Origin: a virus
Strand: one strand, 5' to 3'
DNA length: 26,667 bases
Virus record (IMG/VR): IMGVR_UViG_3300031857_016370
Location: 1 to 26,667 of that record
Shown: piece after piece, positions 3,043 through 25,210 of the stretch
Numbering within the stretch: position 1 is the stretch's first letter
Layout: the number at the start of each line of letters is the position of its first letter
Notes under the pieces: model-generated
Told to the model about the DNA's origin: nothing
The model's database searches: none
What the model saw: the letters and a program-made list of their open reading frames with translations, nothing else
Translations under genes and position numbers: made by a program

Positions 3043-3894
3043 TTAATATCCTGTAGATTCAGTTTCCCAAACTTCTTCTTTAAGTTTTTTATTTAACTCA
3101 TAAGCTCTAGCCAAACGAGTCATTCCTATTCCACCACCAAAACGTGGGAAGAAATTATGAGATAAAAACTCTCCCAATTCTTTTTCTACTCTTTCTTTAC
3201 CGAATAATTCAAACAACTTAGCAGAATAACCACCATTTTCTATCGTGTAGAAGTTATTTCTCATTTCCTCAACATTGGAACTTCTTTCTGCGGAACCTAT
3301 AGTTTCCTGACCAAACAATATTACATCAACTTTGTTGAATATTTTGTTTTTACCTTCTCTCATATTCCAAAATGGATTTGTTCTGTACGGGAAGTTCTGT
3401 AGAGATACTACTGAACCTTTCTCTTCCCACATTCTTGTTTCGTGTTCGTTTTCTAAAATTTGAACTCCACCATATTCTTCACAAACATCGTCATAATTCA
3501 CTTCAACCGGGTTATTAAACCCAAGATAATCTAAAAGTTCCGATTCAAGTTTTAACATTTCTTTCATTCCACCTTTTGATTCAAATTCAAACATTGGGAA
3601 AATCATTTCGTGACGACCTGGAATTGGGTCTTTCTCTTGTCTATAAGACGTTGAAATACAATATACACCGTCCCATTCAGGATTCTTAAGAAGTTCGTAT
3701 TCTAACCACATTTGACCCGTCTGTGGTAGTGGCCAAACCTCCCCCTGATAATTAAATGTTGTTATTGAGTGTGGATTTTCACACGCTGCCAAGATTGACA
3801 ATCTTGATTGGGTTGGAACTTCTTTAAATCCTTTGTTTTGGAAGAATGTTCTCATCTTTTGAACTAACTCGTTGTAAGTTTCTGTGTTTTTCAT
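3043..3894 (-). CDS. Class II aaRS-like protein, probable asparagine synthetase A (archaeal type)
   Basis: A 283-residue catalytic core of the AspRS/AsnRS subclass of class II synthetases without an anticodon-binding domain. Motif 2 is seen as SYRQEKD then GRHEMIFPMFEFES, and motif 3 as FPRFGGGIGMTRLARAY with the ATP-binding arginine. Stand-alone cores of this size are known as archaeal-type asparagine synthetase (aspartate + ammonia + ATP to asparagine), which evolved from AspRS; this is the best guess. The alternative is a truncated AsnRS/AspRS paralogue that aminoacylates something else. It is transcribed alone on the minus strand, convergent with the signalling operon and divergent from dnaK. 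Its leader contains a terminator-like hairpin 40 nt upstream of the start. Family confident, exact reaction less so. Confidence 0.8.
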   Translation of the reverse strand: MKNTETYNELVQKMRTFFQNKGFKEVPTQSRLSILAACENPHSITTFNYQGEVWPLPQTGQMWLEYELLKNPEWDGVYCISTSYRQEKDPIPGRHEMIFPMFEFESKGGMKEMLKLESELLDYLGFNNPVEVNYDDVCEEYGGVQILENEHETRMWEEKGSVVSLQNFPYRTNPFWNMREGKNKIFNKVDVILFGQETIGSAERSSNVEEMRNNFYTIENGGYSAKLFELFGKERVEKELGEFLSHNFFPRFGGGIGMTRLARAYELNKKLKEEVWETESTGY

Positions 3895-4158: not shown

Positions 4159-6024
4159 ATGGGAAAAATTATAGGAATTGACCTTGGAACAACTAATTCA
4201 TGTGTTGCCGTAATGGAAGGTAACGAACCAGTTGTGATTACAAACAGTGAAGGAAAAAGAACCACCCCTTCAATTGTGGGTTTCTTAAATGGTGGTGAAA
4301 GAAAGGTTGGCGACCCGGCTAAACGTCAGGCGGTTACTAATCCTGATAAAACTATTTCATCTATCAAGCGTTTCATGGGAAGTAGCTTTGATGAAAGTAA
4401 AAGTGAAATAAAACGTGTACCTTACAAAGTAGTTAAGGGTGATGGTGGGACTCCTCGTGTTGAAATTGAAGACAGAAAGTATTCTCCACAAGAAATTTCT
4501 GCGATGGTTCTTCAGAAGATGAAACAAACTGCTGAAGATTATTTGGGAAGTGAAGTTACTGAAGCAGTTATCACGGTTCCGGCTTACTTTAACGACGCTC
4601 AACGTCAAGCTACGAAAGAAGCTGGCGAGATTGCGGGATTAAAAGTGATGAGAATTGTTAACGAACCAACTGCCGCAGCACTTGCTTACGGTCTTGACAA
4701 ACAATCTAAAGACATGAAGATTGTTGTGTTTGACTGTGGTGGTGGAACTCATGACGTATCAGTTTTGGAGTTGGGTGATGGCGTATTTGAAGTATTATCA
4801 ACTGATGGTGATACACATCTTGGTGGTGATGACTTTGACCAAGCAATCATTGACTGGTTGGTAACTGAGTTCAAAGATGAAAACGGAATTGACTTGACGA
4901 AAGATGCGATGGCTCTTCAACGTCTTCGTGAAGGTGCTGAGAAGGCGAAGATTGAATTATCTTCTTCACCATCTACGGAGATTAACTTACCATACATTAT
5001 GCCTGTTGACGGTATACCTAAACACTTGGTAAGAACATTGTCTAAGGCTAAATTTGAACAACTTGTTGATAGTTTGGTTGAAAGAACAATCGCTCCTTGT
5101 AAGTCGGCTTTGAAAAATGCGGGACTTAAGACAACTGATATTGATGAAATCATTTTGGTTGGTGGAACAACACGTATTCCGGCAATTCAAGAAGCGGTTA
5201 AGAAGTTCTTTGGTAAGGACCCATCAAAAGGTGTTAATCCTGATGAGGTTGTTGCTCTTGGGGCAGCTATCCAAGCAGGAGTATTGGCAGGTGATGTTAA
5301 AGATGTGTTATTGTTAGACGTTACACCACTATCACTTGGTATTGAAACAATGGGTGGAGTATTCACAAAATTAATTGAAGCAAATACCACAATCCCAACC
5401 AAGAAATCACAAGTATTCTCAACCGCAGTTGATAACCAACCGTCTGTTGAAATTCACGTATTACAAGGTGAGAGAGCAATGGCTAAAGATAACCGAACCA
5501 TTGGACGATTCCACTTGGACGGTATTCCACCATCAATGAGAGGGGTTCCACAAATTGAAGTTACTTTTGATATTGATGCGAATGGTATTATTAATGTATC
5601 GGCAGTTGACAAAGGAACTGATAAGAAACAAACTATTAGAATTGAGGCTTCTTCAGGACTTTCAAAAGAAGAAATTGAAAACATGAGAAAAGAGGCTGAG
5701 ATGAATGCAGAATCTGATAAAAAAGCGAAAGAAGATGCTGAAACAATAAATCAGGCGGATTCACTAATCTTTTCAATTGAAAAAACATTAAAAGATTTAG
5801 ATGATAAACTAACTGAAACTCAAAAATCAGATATCAATACCGCACTTGATGAATTGAAAAAGTCACATTCTGAAAGAAATGTTGAAGATATTAAGGTGAA
5901 TATGGATAAATTGAATTCAACATTCCAAGAAATAAGTTCAACACTTTATGGTCAAGGTGATGAAAACATGACTGAACAAGATTCTGAAGTATCTGATGTT
6001 GATTTTGAAGAAGTTAAGAAATAA
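4159..6024 (+). CDS. dnaK: Hsp70 chaperone DnaK
   Basis: A 621-residue, full-length DnaK. The nucleotide-binding domain (about 1-385) has the first phosphate motif [11 protein letters not shown] at 5-15, a second phosphate motif reading [13 protein letters not shown], and the adenosine motif [13 protein letters not shown]. The interdomain linker is [13 protein letters not shown]. The substrate-binding domain and helical lid follow, and the tail ends in the acidic FEEVKK typical of DnaK, which recruits partners such as GrpE- and DnaJ-assisted clients. In most DnaKs the second phosphate motif is DLGGGTFD; here Leu is Cys and Phe is His, a small oddity. GC content and codon use are more host-like than in the neighbours. 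No dnaJ or grpE is nearby, so host co-chaperones are presumably used. Start chosen by homology; leader is A-rich without a Shine-Dalgarno site. Confidence 0.97.
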
Positions 6025-6271: not shown

Positions 6272-6433
6272 ATGAAAATAGTTACAAGAGTTTACGAAGA
6301 TGAAGAAACAATATCAACATGGACTTATGATTTAGATAAGTTCAAGAACGGACCAATTTCTGTTGATATCAAATACAAAAACGAACCTGTAAAAAAACGT
6401 TCAGGTAGAGAAAAAAACCCAAATAAAAAATGA
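6272..6433 (+). CDS. Small charged hypothetical protein
   Basis: A 53-residue ORF in a tight run: it starts directly after the preceding stop and its own stop overlaps the HAD gene start as ATGA (6430-6433). The N-terminal part looks like a short beta-rich fold (MKIVTRVYEDEETISTWTY). The last 15 residues are basic (VKKRSGREKNPNKK). Junction structure and codon use support it as real; no family recognised. Confidence 0.6.
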   Translation: MKIVTRVYEDEETISTWTYDLDKFKNGPISVDIKYKNEPVKKRSGREKNPNKK

Positions 6434-7002
6434 AAACAATATTTTTAGACCACGATGGAGTTATCTGTCTGTCCACTAATTGGGGGTCACGATTTAAAAA
6501 ACAAAAAAAATATAGAAAAAAATTGAGTCAATCAGTAATGACAATGCCTCTTGATGCTCGTTTTGATAACTTTGATAAGAAATCAATCAAGGTATTGAAT
6601 GAAATCTTGGAACAGACCGGCGCAGAAATCGTTGTATCTTCTGATTGGAAAGTTTGGTGTTCAGTTGAGGAAATGGGTGATTACTATGAGAAACAAGGTA
6701 TCATCAAACGACCAATTGATTTCACAACAAATGTGATTGATGGTGAAAAAGTTACATGGTACCGAAATTGGGATTTGGAAGGAACAAGAAGTATACAAAT
6801 CCAAGAATGGTTAAAAGAACATCCTGAGGTAACACATTGGGTGGCGATTGATGATTTGGATATGGGCAAGACCGGACTACATTACGGAATGGAATTTGAA
6901 CACGAATGGGGGTTGGATAACTTTGTCTTAACACCTTTGAACAATGAAGGTATTAAACAAGTAGGGGTTAAAGAAAAGGTTTTATCTTTCTTGGAAGGAT
7001 AA
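6430..7002 (+). CDS. HAD-like hydrolase (phosphatase or RNA-repair type)
   Basis: A 190-residue HAD-superfamily protein. Motif I is FLDHDGVI with the nucleophile Asp7 and the acid/base Asp9; motif II is IVVSSDWK; the acidic motif IV is VAIDDLDMG. It lacks a clear cap domain and resembles the HAD type found in 'Swiss Army Knife' RNA-repair proteins and in stand-alone phage proteins. In T4-like phages related phosphatases heal tRNA or nucleotide 3' ends; that role is only inferred here. It is coupled to the preceding small gene through ATGA. Catalytic residues look intact. Confidence 0.75.
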   Translation: MKTIFLDHDGVICLSTNWGSRFKKQKKYRKKLSQSVMTMPLDARFDNFDKKSIKVLNEILEQTGAEIVVSSDWKVWCSVEEMGDYYEKQGIIKRPIDFTTNVIDGEKVTWYRNWDLEGTRSIQIQEWLKEHPEVTHWVAIDDLDMGKTGLHYGMEFEHEWGLDNFVLTPLNNEGIKQVGVKEKVLSFLEG

Positions 7003-9023: not shown

Positions 9024-9242
9024 ATGGAGATAGTACACAGAACTTGGAAAAAAATATTTTTAGAAAATATTTCCGTAAAACTTTTAATGTTAGGAATGTT
9101 CTTCAATCCACTTGGGTTCGATGCTGTTCAGTATTGGCTTATTTCACTAACAGGGAGTTTGTGGTACGCAAATCTAACTTTGTATTTTATTTCGGGTTTT
9201 TTCTTTGGGTTATCTTTTTTATTCAAAAAATATTCTAAATGA
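9024..9242 (+). CDS. Small two-span membrane protein
   Basis: A 72-residue protein with two hydrophobic segments: residues 20-40 (LLMLGMFFNPLGFDAVQYWL) and 44-66 (ending YFISGFFFGLSFLF), with a Lys-rich C-terminus. Two long overlapping frames exist here. This one is chosen because it forms a regular membrane hairpin and its stop overlaps the PPK2 start as ATGA; the frame from 9017 has no such coupling. The first 19 residues are less regular and the true start may be a later Met. Function unknown; co-expressed with PPK2. Confidence 0.6.
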   Translation: MEIVHRTWKKIFLENISVKLLMLGMFFNPLGFDAVQYWLISLTGSLWYANLTLYFISGFFFGLSFLFKKYSK

Positions 9243-10306
9243 GAAATTTAAATAGACACTTATTAAGTGAAGAAAAGACAAAATCAGAATCACATATTAA
9301 ACGTATTGTGGACATTCTTAGATATAGTGATGTATACAGTGCTCAATTACAAAAAGATTTAAATCAGGTAATTGATTACTCAAAAAACCAAATTGTTGAT
9401 TTCAATTTGTTAGAAAGAGGTATAATGAAAGTCCTTAAAATGAAAGGGGATAAGAGTAAAAATATCCTTGAATTTTTTAAAAAATTATTAAAGTCACTTA
9501 AAAAACGAGAAAAGAATATTATTTTACAGGAACCTGAAAAAGATGATTTACCACAGTTAGAACCACAAGAACCTTCAGTAATTCCAAAGAAAGTTTATAG
9601 AGAAGAACTTTATTATTTACAAGTTGAGTTATTAAAATTACAAGAATGGTTAAATCAAACAGGTAAAACTGTGATTATTGTTTTTGAAGGTAGGGACTCA
9701 GCGGGTAAAGGTTCAACAATTAAAAAATTTGTTGAATATATGAACCCAAGATTTTATAATATAATTGCTTTAGGTATACCATCACCCGAAGAAAGAAAAA
9801 ATTGGTGGGATAGATATAGAAGTCAAATACAATCTGGTAAAGTTAATTTATTCGATAGAAGTTGGTATAACAGAGGATTAATAGAACCTGTTATGGGTTA
9901 TGGTTCGGCTGAAGAATATGAGGATTTTATGGATAATGTTGAAGATTTTGAACAGGGATTAGTTAAAGACGGTGATTACCTTTTCAAACTGTGGTTTTCA
10001 ATAGATAAAGTAACTCAAGCTAAACGATTTGAGATGAGACAACAATCTCCTTTAAAATATTGGAAATATTCACCTAATGATGAAAAGATGCAAGATTTGT
10101 GGGATAGATTTACTGAATTTAAAGAAAAACTATTTGATAAGACATCAACAGTTAATCATCCTTGGGTGATTATTGATTCAAACGATAAAAGAATTTCAGG
10201 TTTAAATGCGATTAGATATGTTTTACAAAACATACCATATAAAAATAAAAATGAAGAAATTTTAGATAAAAGCTTTCCTGAAGCATTAACTGTATTAAAA
10301 CCGTAA
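9239..10306 (+). CDS. ppk2: Polyphosphate kinase 2 family protein with N-terminal extension
   Basis: A 355-residue protein. Residues 118-345 are a PPK2 domain, which moves phosphate between polyphosphate and nucleotides. Visible are the Walker A loop FEGRDSAGKGST (149-160), the Walker B-like VNLFDRSWYNRG (202-213, Asp206), the lid arginines around 183-195, and the C-terminal HPWVIIDSNDK. The first 115 residues are not part of PPK2: a leader MRNLNRHLLSEE with L-S-E at 9-11, a helical region, and a Pro/Glu-rich linker. The leader matches the putative prohead-protease motif of neighbouring proteins, so the enzyme may be packaged in the head. Start fixed by the ATGA overlap with the preceding gene. 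PPK2 is known in bacteria and archaea and is unusual in phages. Family confident; substrate preference (NDP or NMP) not readable. Confidence 0.92.
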   Translation: MRNLNRHLLSEEKTKSESHIKRIVDILRYSDVYSAQLQKDLNQVIDYSKNQIVDFNLLERGIMKVLKMKGDKSKNILEFFKKLLKSLKKREKNIILQEPEKDDLPQLEPQEPSVIPKKVYREELYYLQVELLKLQEWLNQTGKTVIIVFEGRDSAGKGSTIKKFVEYMNPRFYNIIALGIPSPEERKNWWDRYRSQIQSGKVNLFDRSWYNRGLIEPVMGYGSAEEYEDFMDNVEDFEQGLVKDGDYLFKLWFSIDKVTQAKRFEMRQQSPLKYWKYSPNDEKMQDLWDRFTEFKEKLFDKTSTVNHPWVIIDSNDKRISGLNAIRYVLQNIPYKNKNEEILDKSFPEALTVLKP

Positions 10307-21267: not shown

Positions 21268-21663
21268 ATGAAAACACCAAAAATGAATATTATGAGTAAG
21301 AAAGACAAAAAACAAAACGCTGAATTGATTGAGAAATTGAATGAAATCCAATCACAATTAAATGAGGTTAAATCTGAGGCAGGTTTCGTAGTTGAAGATG
21401 CGGACATTGTATTTACAAGAGAACAATTAGAAAACTTCTTGGTTGAATACACCACCAAAATAAACGAACTTATCTTTGATGAGATGTATAATTCACTTGA
21501 ACACGAAAATGTTGTTACATTTGACGTAGATGGTAATACAATTATACCAACCATTGATGAAGAATTGTTAAAAGATGCTTTCAATGAAGCAACCTACAAT
21601 GTTGAAACCAATGTGATAATGGATTTTGCTGACGAAGTAATGTCTGAGGTCGGAGTAATCTAA
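21268..21663 (+). CDS. Hypothetical protein with N-terminal coiled coil
   Basis: A 131-residue acidic protein. Two ATGs (21268, and 21292 after NIM) are possible; the first is closest to the promoter. Residues 10-40 are a charged coiled coil (KKDKKQNAELIEKLNEIQSQ), and the rest is alpha/beta and acidic (FTREQLENFLVEYTTKINEL, DADGNT-like DVDGNTIIP). No family recognised. Its stop is directly followed by the large structured RNA region. Confidence 0.6.
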   Translation: MKTPKMNIMSKKDKKQNAELIEKLNEIQSQLNEVKSEAGFVVEDADIVFTREQLENFLVEYTTKINELIFDEMYNSLEHENVVTFDVDGNTIIPTIDEELLKDAFNEATYNVETNVIMDFADEVMSEVGVI

Positions 21664-22136
21664 TTTGCAAAGAAGACCCCACAATACCGATTTATCTACG
21701 GTTGGACAGTGTGAACCTGGCGGGAAGGCTCCAAGGCTATGGGGGAGGCTACACAAACTTAAATCAGATACCCCAATTATGGATGGAAGGGGTGAGGGGC
21801 CTTAAATGGTTGTAATACAATCCACAAGTTGTAGAAATACTGGACAATTCTACAATACACACTCTTCTTACGAGTGAGACCATCCATGTAACTTTGGGGG
21901 TATGGAGAAGATGTCCTGAGGGTAGCACCTAATCGTTAATTGTAAGGCTTGAGGTCCGAAAGGATATCCAAATCCACAAGCACGATGGTGTAAGAGTAGA
22001 GGTCTTCGGTGGATGGTTACTACGGTCCCACTCTCTTGGGGTATATCCGAAGAAATACTATTGATGGTAAATACTAAAACCAAAGGTCGTCTCGTGAAAT
22101 ACCACACGGACAGGGAAGGCGACCTTTAACTTTTTA
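21664..22136 (+). ncRNA. Large structured non-coding RNA (about 470 nt), unidentified
   Basis: This 470-nt stretch has no plausible gene, is clearly richer in G and C than its surroundings, and is full of complementary segments. Examples: ATGGATGG (21779-21786) pairs with CCATCCAT (21880-21887). Inside it TTGTAGAA/TTCTACAA (21829/21848) and CACTC/GAGTG (21860/21872) form hairpins. TCTTCGG (22003-22009) pairs with CCGAAGA (22047-22053). GTCC-GAAA-GGAT is a GNRA hairpin near 21955. AAAGGTCG (22082-22089) pairs with CGACCTTT (22120-22127), followed by a T-run. It lacks RNase P and tmRNA signatures. Its length and place beside a phage tRNA array recall the ornate GOLLD and ROOL RNAs, but I cannot confirm identity. 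Confidence 0.75.
22082..22135 (+). terminator. 3' stem and T-run closing the structured RNA
   Basis: Perfect 8-bp stem AAAGGTCG / CGACCTTT around a 30-nt loop, followed by AACTTTTT just before the next gene start at 22142. Confidence 0.5.
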
Positions 22137-22141
22137 AACAG

Positions 22142-22663
22142 ATGAAATATAAAATATCAATATTCGGTAAGGGTTCAGAAACTTATGTTTTCCCAATCAG
22201 TGAGGAACAGAAACAAAAGTTTGTGGATATGAATATAGAAAATTCTAGTTTATTGTTAGATGATGTTCTACCTGTTTTAGGTATTGAATATTTGAGTGAT
22301 GGTGATATTTCATTTTTAGGAGCATATGCCGACCCTGAATTATATCAGATACAAGTTGAAAATGAGAGTGGTGAGGTTATTTGGGAAAGTTCAGAGTCAT
22401 TTTACCCTGATGATAATGATTTCCAATGTGTTTATGATGATGACAACTTCCTTTTAGTTGAAGACTATTGTAAAGGTACTTTCTTTACCTATGAGTTAGA
22501 GTTAGATGAAGATTTTAATCATGGACTTATTAACTTAATTGTGAAAGAAATTGGTGAGAAAGTTGAGTTATTAACAGGAATTACCTACAATGGTAATGAT
22601 ATTGAAGAAAATAAAGATTTTGGTGATACTTGGAGTAAAGGGATTTATTACCATTTAGTATAA
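22142..22663 (+). CDS. Acidic hypothetical protein
   Basis: A 173-residue acidic protein with a beta-rich start (MKYKISIFGKGSETYVFPIS) and strands such as YQIQVENESGEVIWESSESF and NFLLVEDYCKGTFFTYELEL, followed by an alpha/beta end (NLIVKEIGEKVELLTGITY). No family recognised. It starts seven bases after the T-run of the structured RNA and ends 11 nt before tRNA-Phe, so it may share a transcript with the tRNAs. Confidence 0.65.
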   Translation: MKYKISIFGKGSETYVFPISEEQKQKFVDMNIENSSLLLDDVLPVLGIEYLSDGDISFLGAYADPELYQIQVENESGEVIWESSESFYPDDNDFQCVYDDDNFLLVEDYCKGTFFTYELELDEDFNHGLINLIVKEIGEKVELLTGITYNGNDIEENKDFGDTWSKGIYYHLV

Positions 22664-22674
22664 CCTTATTATAT

Positions 22675-22748
22675 GAAGAAGTAGCTCAGAAGGTAGAGCA
22701 TAGGTTTGAAACACCTTGTGCCACGTGGTTCGAATCCCGTCTTCTTCA
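22675..22748 (+). tRNA. tRNA-Phe (GAA), irregular copy
   Basis: 74 nt. Acceptor GAAGAAG/CTTCTTC with discriminator A; D-arm GCTCAGAAGGTAGAGC; anticodon loop TTGAAAC read as GAA on a four-pair AGGT/ACCT stem with a T-T mismatch below. The T-arm needs a bulged T (ACG-T-GG / CCCGT). A second, regular tRNA-Phe (GAA) is at 25249. CCA is not encoded. The assignment could be affected by these irregularities. Confidence 0.75.
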
Positions 22749-22753
22749 CAAAT

Positions 22754-24601: not shown

Positions 24602-25210
24602 ATGGAATGGTTTGATAATCAAATATTCATCTCAATGGTTAAAAATAATTTACCCAGATTATTTAAAAAGGCTGAAATTGAAAGTATGAGAGGGGGTAAG
24701 ATAGGTATGGAAGTTGGGGTGTTAAGGGAGCGTATTTTGATTGCGTTATTACTTAAATCATTTGGGGAGGAAAATGTGAAATTTGATTTTTCATCAACTG
24801 ACAACTCAAAAGACACTCAAGTATTTGATGATATTCTATCAATTAAAACTTTTATGAATAATGGGTATGGTGGTGTAAAAGTTTTTTGGGCATCTGATAA
24901 TAAAACAGTAAAAAATGCCGTTGATAACTACATTCCACAAAACCACATTTTAATTTCCAATATTAATTGGGGTACAAAAAATGGAGGATTGTATTTGATT
25001 AGTTTAAACACACAATTAAAAATTTTTAATACTATTGGTGTTGAAAATTATCTAAAAATAAATAATGGTAATAATAGAGGTATATCAATTCAAACAGAAG
25101 TATTGAAAACTTTATTATCTCACCAAGAAACAAAACATATTACTGTTGATTGGGTTGAACCTAACCTCAATTATAACATATATGAAAGATGGATAAACGA
25201 AATGAACTAA
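24602..25210 (+). CDS. ThaI-type restriction endonuclease, orphan
   Basis: A 202-residue protein recognised as the ThaI restriction-endonuclease type. ThaI cuts CGCG; the specificity of this protein is not known. The N-terminal block PRLFKKAEIESMRGGKIGME, then VGVLRERILIALLLKSFGEE, is the family hallmark. DDILSIKTF (76-84) supplies the acidic residue and Lys82 of a PD-(D/E)xK nuclease centre. The later INWGTKNGGLYLISL and a C-terminal LLSHQETKHITVDW also fit. No methyltransferase lies in the window, so it is an orphan here. It sits inside the tRNA array between tRNA-Pro and tRNA-Phe, behind a weak TAGATTTG box (24567-24574). Possible roles are attack on host or competitor DNA, or selfish mobility. 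Confidence 0.78.
   Translation: MEWFDNQIFISMVKNNLPRLFKKAEIESMRGGKIGMEVGVLRERILIALLLKSFGEENVKFDFSSTDNSKDTQVFDDILSIKTFMNNGYGGVKVFWASDNKTVKNAVDNYIPQNHILISNINWGTKNGGLYLISLNTQLKIFNTIGVENYLKINNGNNRGISIQTEVLKTLLSHQETKHITVDWVEPNLNYNIYERWINEMN

Follow-up and report, generated by a model that had tools for sequence, protein, structure and literature searches.

The window, the whole stretch of DNA that was analysed, is a 26.7-kb virus fragment from IMG/VR and carries 14 tRNA genes, all on the + strand. A non-coding RNA of 456 nt lies between two ORFs, upstream of tRNA-Phe.

21268-21663: 131-aa ORF on the 5' side of the RNA
21673 to about 22128, + strand: the whole non-coding RNA, from its conserved edge AAGACCCC through the 3' hairpin, as delimited by nhmmer/MAFFT homologues and covariation
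22142-22663, + strand: 173-aa ORF on the 3' side of the RNA, with no Pfam match
22675-22749, + strand: tRNA-Phe, 547 nt 3' of the RNA

A first-pass annotation had placed an ornate RNA at 21664-22136; the RNA gene is real, and the RNA proper lies slightly inside that span. Its description of the stretch as GC-rich in an AT-rich genome was correct (GC content of the RNA, 0.39-0.46, versus about 0.31 around it), as was its placement next to a tRNA array, given the same-strand tRNAs and the downstream tRNA-Phe. In the window, the 173-aa ORF separates the RNA from tRNA-Phe; this ORF is missing from relatives such as L003, and tRNA-Phe follows the RNA immediately in L002, L003, L050, and L118. The tRNA array of the window also harbors a gene for a ThaI-like restriction endonuclease (24602-25210, + strand; Pfam PF15514, E 4e-51). 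Four other proteins, encoded at 3043-3894 (-), 4159-6024 (+), 6430-7002 (+), and 9239-10306 (+), were assigned jointly: among them are a class II aminoacyl-tRNA synthetase-like protein and a HAD_SAK_2 RNA-repair-type HAD protein, together with DnaK-like and polyphosphate kinase 2-like proteins recognized by eye only. The closest named relative of a neighbouring DUF932 protein is found in Flavobacterium phages (31% identity), and a Bacteroidota host is only a guess from this likeness.

The + strand of the RNA stretch contains no gene-sized ORF. The longest ORF lies on the - strand (79 aa, 21868-22107); neither a codon pattern nor a third-position excess was found in it, and its counterparts in relatives occupy shifting places. 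The stretch is thus gene-free, as first described, and a coding signal with a conserved frame was looked for among the relatives and not found. The folding energy of the window RNA was ordinary (z = -0.73), so the impression gained from a single sequence proves nothing and the case rests on comparison.

Protein-anchored retrieval yielded the first 11 full-length relatives, and IMG/VR was then scanned with three motifs of the RNA itself, plus a fourth. The RNA was present in about 71 phage contigs besides the window, as 50 or more distinct sequences of 420-560 nt, and nhmmer supported all motif matches except one. Two independent motifs recovered 63 and 66 contigs, mostly the same ones, which suggests that sampling of the family is close to saturation for members this divergent. 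Blastn of three different members against 50,697 named phage records gave no real match, and an exact-motif scan of 84,980 prokaryote genomes of GTDB found no RNA: its sole match was a chance one within a coding stretch, where the remaining RNA is absent. A weak covariance-model match in phage G010, inside an ORF resembling a glycosyltransferase, was likewise rejected as chance. A search of 192 genomes of the phylum of G023 found none and is uninformative, because it lacked a positive control and the phylum had not been selected as a host. No description of the RNA was found in a literature search, which reached a minority of preprints and subscription papers.

The carrier contigs include ones of 304, 299, 294, 269, 219, 209, 196, and 185 kb. 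Eight carrier phages of 140-304 kb each have a single copy of the RNA and 24-37 tRNAs, whereas four relatives without the RNA have 0, 1, 15, and 16 tRNAs; this association of the RNA with large tRNA sets is suggestive only, because the records are not known to be complete. L038 has no RNA and retains a hairpin like its 3' stem, and in L051 about 320 nt of the RNA has been deleted, leaving a remnant at 5399-5552 with the internal deletion at AAGACCCC|GAGGTCTT.

We aligned 48 distinct full-length sequences. The resulting model has 92 pairs, 17 helices, and five pseudoknots; 96.2% of cells are paired, compared with 81.6% after shuffling and 36-48% with slid partners, two-sided changes occur at 64 of the 92 pairs (in none of 500 shuffles), and double-change cells number 668 against 206 +/- 13 expected, counts that lean towards the model since it was derived from an alignment of largely the same sequences. 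In a second test, our own R-scape-like procedure compared each helix with all possible helices of equal length under a tree-preserving null. Nine helices were significant on their own (P4, P5, P8, P9, P10, P11, P12, and pseudoknots A and E); P1, P2b, P3, and pseudoknots B (p 7e-5) and C (p 0.001) gained support singly only; P0, P6, P7, and pseudoknot D are conserved, with too little variation for proof. The helices of the model, all on the + strand, are as follows.

21677-21744, + strand: P0, CCCC 21677-80 with GGGG 21741-44, closing the 5' domain; near-invariant, with no formal significance, and with compensatory changes in L122 (to U-A) and L123 (to G-U)
21686-21702, + strand: P1 hairpin, 21686-89/21699-702; two-sided changes at 3 of 4 pairs, per-helix p 1.6e-5
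21716-21736, + strand: P2 hairpin, CCUGG/CCAAGG; 98.8% paired, AU/GC swap in 16 sequences
21727-21750, + strand: pseudoknot C (tentative), P2 loop 21727-30 with 21747-50; GC/UA swaps at one pair, per-helix p 0.0012
21760-21765, + strand: insertion point of an optional stem of about 66-80 nt, present in alignments of L044-L046, L062, L069, L113, and others and absent in the window
21771-21792, + strand: P3 hairpin, CCCC/GGGG, with an invariant UUAUGG loop; 100% paired, CG/UA swap in 11
21780-21824, + strand: pseudoknot D (tentative), P3 loop UGGAU with AUCCA 21820-24; 99.2% paired, 3 compensatory changes
21798-21811, + strand: P4 hairpin; E 0.03 under the tree null
21828-21856, + strand: P5, 9-bp hairpin GUUGUAGAA/UUCUACAAU; two-sided changes at 7 of 9 pairs, E<0.02
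21842-21916, + strand: pseudoknot B, P5 loop GGACA with UGUCC 21912-16; two pairs changed two-sidedly, in 4 and 19 sequences, per-helix p 7e-5
21860-21901, + strand: P6 (21860-64/21872-76) and P7 (21879-86/21895-901) hairpins, enclosed by pseudoknot B; 99.6-100% paired, few changes
21925-21991, + strand: P8 and variable domain, with length variants and a short hairpin instead in some members; E<0.02 under the tree null
22004-22052, + strand: P9, CUUCGG/CCGAAG, elsewhere CACCG/CGGUG or CCCGA/UCGGG; two-sided changes at 5 of 6 pairs, E<0.02
22025-22042, + strand: P10 hairpin; two-sided changes at 6 of 6 pairs, E<0.02
22032-22116, + strand: pseudoknot A, P10 loop 22032-36 with 22112-16 in the 3' hairpin; two-sided changes at 5 of 5 pairs, E<0.02
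22065-22104, + strand: pseudoknot E, UGGUA 22065-69 with UACCA 22100-04 in the loop of the 3' hairpin; two-sided changes at 5 of 5 pairs, E<0.02
22083-22126, + strand: P11/P12, the 3' hairpin (22083-92/22117-26; 22093-96/22105-08); two-sided changes at 14 of 14 pairs

The RNA is modular, with the optional 66-80 nt stem past 21761 and, in several members, a short hairpin in place of the variable P8 domain, and it has many invariant unpaired positions (UUAUGG, CACAAG, GUAACU, GGUUACUA). Many members carry U runs 3' of the P11/P12 hairpin, which is therefore terminator-like. Two elements drawn in the first-pass annotation, the 22003/22047 helix (CUUCGG/CCGAAG) and the closing 3' stem with its T-run, proved to be among the best covarying helices. 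Its 8-bp helix 21779-86/21880-87 fared otherwise: apart from three pairs that never vary, no more than 3-24 of 48 homologues are able to form it, and it shows no covariation, which marks it, on the alignment, as a coincidence of the window sequence; its bases take part in other helices. RNAalifold on 11 sequences proposed a long closing helix (AAGACC/GGUCUU), which failed to hold in the 48. The proposed search for covariation among homologues thus gave a positive answer under shuffle, slide, and tree nulls, and this covariation indicates a true structured RNA.

The genomic surroundings were compared across 57 representative loci, in which 528 of 531 tRNAs are on the strand of the RNA. Of the loci whose flank extends for 1 kb or more, 31 of 40 have a downstream tRNA no farther than 1 kb away, in 17 of the 40 the distance is at most 60 nt, and 13 of 47 have an upstream tRNA at 150 nt or less. 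AAGACCCC starts 0-2 nt past the 3' end of a T-arm and acceptor in about a dozen loci. The neighbours themselves vary: a protein gene, a tRNA, or a small RNA upstream, and tRNA-Phe, -Asp, -Ile, -Thr, -Pro, -Glu, -Met, or a protein gene downstream. A shared protein neighbour was sought across the 57 loci, and the best one occurred in 16. Such free exchange of both flanks suggests that the RNA does not serve one particular neighbour gene and argues against a riboswitch for one gene. The Bacteroidota-type promoter TAnnTTTG occurred in 3 of 48 upstream stretches, not above background.

Small elements adjoin the RNA in some loci. A conserved element of about 65 nt lies directly 5' of it in L092 (8709-8777, -), L073 (4500-4568), L093, L088, and others, with the motif GAGAACCGTGAGT..GCGGATGGAAACAAC..ACGAGCATACGTCATA and a covarying closing stem (AAGTAGAG/CTCTACTT, AAATAGAG/CTCTATTT, AAGTAAAG/CTTTACTT, AGTGGAG/CTCCACT). 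It was seen only abutting the RNA and may be an optional 5' domain. A second element, with a core of about 70 nt (AGTAGGATGAGGC.GCAATCGGATTCC...CGCGTGAGGGGC.GCTTTCACGATGTGGC), occurs in tRNA arrays, adjoining the RNA or up to 7 kb away (L085:4883-4989 (-), L102:7550-7660, L100:188-257, L104:12280-12349 (-), L082:5968-6038 (-), L084:6113-6178); in a gathering-level Rfam scan of three of its carriers (L085, L100, L104), only tRNA was among the matches listed. On either side of the RNA in L073, L092, L062, and L122 are tRNA-like genes with a normal acceptor stem and T arm and an abnormal anticodon region or large inserts, which ARAGORN misses or calls tRNA-???. In L112, a tRNA with a CUA anticodon (tRNA-Pyl according to ARAGORN), a possible amber suppressor, ends 0 nt before the RNA.

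GOLLD forms a homo-oligomeric nanocage (14-mer), ROOL is an abundant transcript that forms a nanocage, OLE is an RNA of extremophile bacteria with protein partners, and GOLLD and ROOL are both RNA-only. Rfam searched at E<=10 with the window, L113, and L102 gave no real family match, GOLLD, ROOL, RNase P, tmRNA, and group I included, and at the gathering threshold in 12 loci only tRNA was among the 150 matches listed of 152. The search suggested at first reading therefore returned no match even with permissive thresholds and divergent members, in agreement with the absence of an RNase P, tmRNA, or group I intron core noted then. GOLLD, a large structured RNA, is found in phages and prophages, frequently within or beside tRNA arrays, and requires no protein partner; ROOL, also a large phage RNA, lies near tRNA islands and has several pseudoknots and no known protein partner; both self-assemble (PMC12286853). 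Our RNA resembles GOLLD as a phage RNA in or adjoining tRNA arrays, and ROOL in its several pseudoknots (A and E significant, B-D weaker) and lack of a common protein neighbour, a likeness of niche and not homology. Unlike GOLLD, many members of which exceed 800 nt, it is 420-560 nt long, with no cmscan match and no sequence or helix pattern found in common with it; unlike ROOL, to which cmscan also gave no match, it has its own set of invariant motifs. It is large and ornate like OLE, whose size and conservation are taken as a ribozyme hint (PMC11332333), but OLE was not matched by the Rfam search. With RNase P RNA, tmRNA, and the group I intron it shares size, pseudoknots, and a tRNA-related context; however, no RNase P model matched in Rfam, ARAGORN and Rfam found no tRNA-like domain or ends and no tag ORF of a tmRNA, and, unlike a group I intron, it has no P4-P6 insertion and only 5 nt from the P5 strand to the pseudoknot B strand. 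Because it fails the Rfam test of every known family, we do not assign it to GOLLD or ROOL. Of the two options first raised, membership of GOLLD or ROOL falls and a new class stands: the RNA represents a new class in the niche already occupied by these two, and unrelated to them by every test made.

What such an RNA does can be weighed against its fold and its setting. That the stretch is an untranslated spacer or a decayed gene is extremely improbable: folding energy is ordinary and one relative is without the RNA, but the covariation is far above shuffle, slide, and tree nulls, which refutes this reading unless the covariation is an artefact of the alignment, and the RNA is kept across phages whose neighbour genes are otherwise exchanged. 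Its terminator-like 3' hairpin with U runs, locked to the upstream fold by the covarying pseudoknots A and E, and the tRNAs often found downstream would suit a cis-acting attenuator or riboswitch of the tRNA operon, with the hairpin as a regulated terminator. We nevertheless consider this quite unlikely, since the downstream genes vary (no tRNA is within reach in L086, L112, L059, and L098, and a protein gene comes next in the window), the RNA can lie mid-array, 3' of other tRNAs, and the model contains no obvious anti-terminator. Large phage tRNA sets have been linked to evasion of tRNA-cleaving defences (PMC10264068, PMC11555353), and the RNA co-occurs with such sets; it might accordingly be a decoy, or a ribosome- or tRNA-binding RNA, against host defences that cleave tRNA or shut down translation. 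The case is purely contextual, the Rfam scans having shown no direct link in sequence to tRNA or rRNA, and we regard it as very unlikely.

A new ribozyme for cleavage, splicing, or tRNA processing, encoded beside the tRNAs that it would process, is unlikely but has more in its favour: size, multiple pseudoknots, many invariant unpaired bases, and a location within tRNA arrays. Against it, no model of RNase P, of a group I or II intron, or of a small ribozyme matched in Rfam, the order of helices at pseudoknot B is unlike that of group I, and comparison with L038 and L051 revealed no clean intron junction. The absence of a protein partner, the large size, and the pseudoknots are traits of GOLLD and ROOL and favour a trans-acting structural RNA. 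We give about even chances to the reading that large tRNA-rich phages have here a new class of non-coding RNA, structural and trans-acting, which most likely works like GOLLD and ROOL. The invariant unpaired positions would equally fit a ribozyme or a ligand- or ribosome-binding RNA, and the loss in L051 and absence in L038 suggest that the RNA is dispensable in some lineages; both speak against this reading.

The RNA is a conserved, folded, non-coding RNA that lives in tRNA arrays as a single copy and has no Rfam kin. From this we infer its transcription, processing, action in trans, assembly or oligomerization, and role. It would be transcribed within the tRNA array as a single gene, and in some phages it would be fused to an upstream tRNA at a distance of 0-2 nt; the strand-consistent position and tight abutment suggest co-transcription and release by tRNA processing. 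Release would probably be carried out by tRNA-processing nucleases, or the end would be set by its own 3' hairpin. The transcript would adopt a compact fold with some 13-15 helices and as many as five pseudoknots, with no obvious protein partner, giving an abundant self-folding and possibly self-assembling RNA produced during infection. Its role may be in phage takeover of translation, or in RNA storage or protection.

Few large bacterial or phage RNAs are equally elaborate. A catalytic or machine-like RNA class, whose fold is unlike known families and which performs a hitherto undescribed RNA-based step in phage translation or in tRNA biology, is a tentative and rather doubtful prospect. The RNA offers a compact target mapped by covariation, whose firmly supported helices and pseudoknots make the model directly testable. 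If it is truly a third unrelated class in the niche of GOLLD and ROOL, large phages would repeatedly keep big structured RNAs beside their tRNAs.
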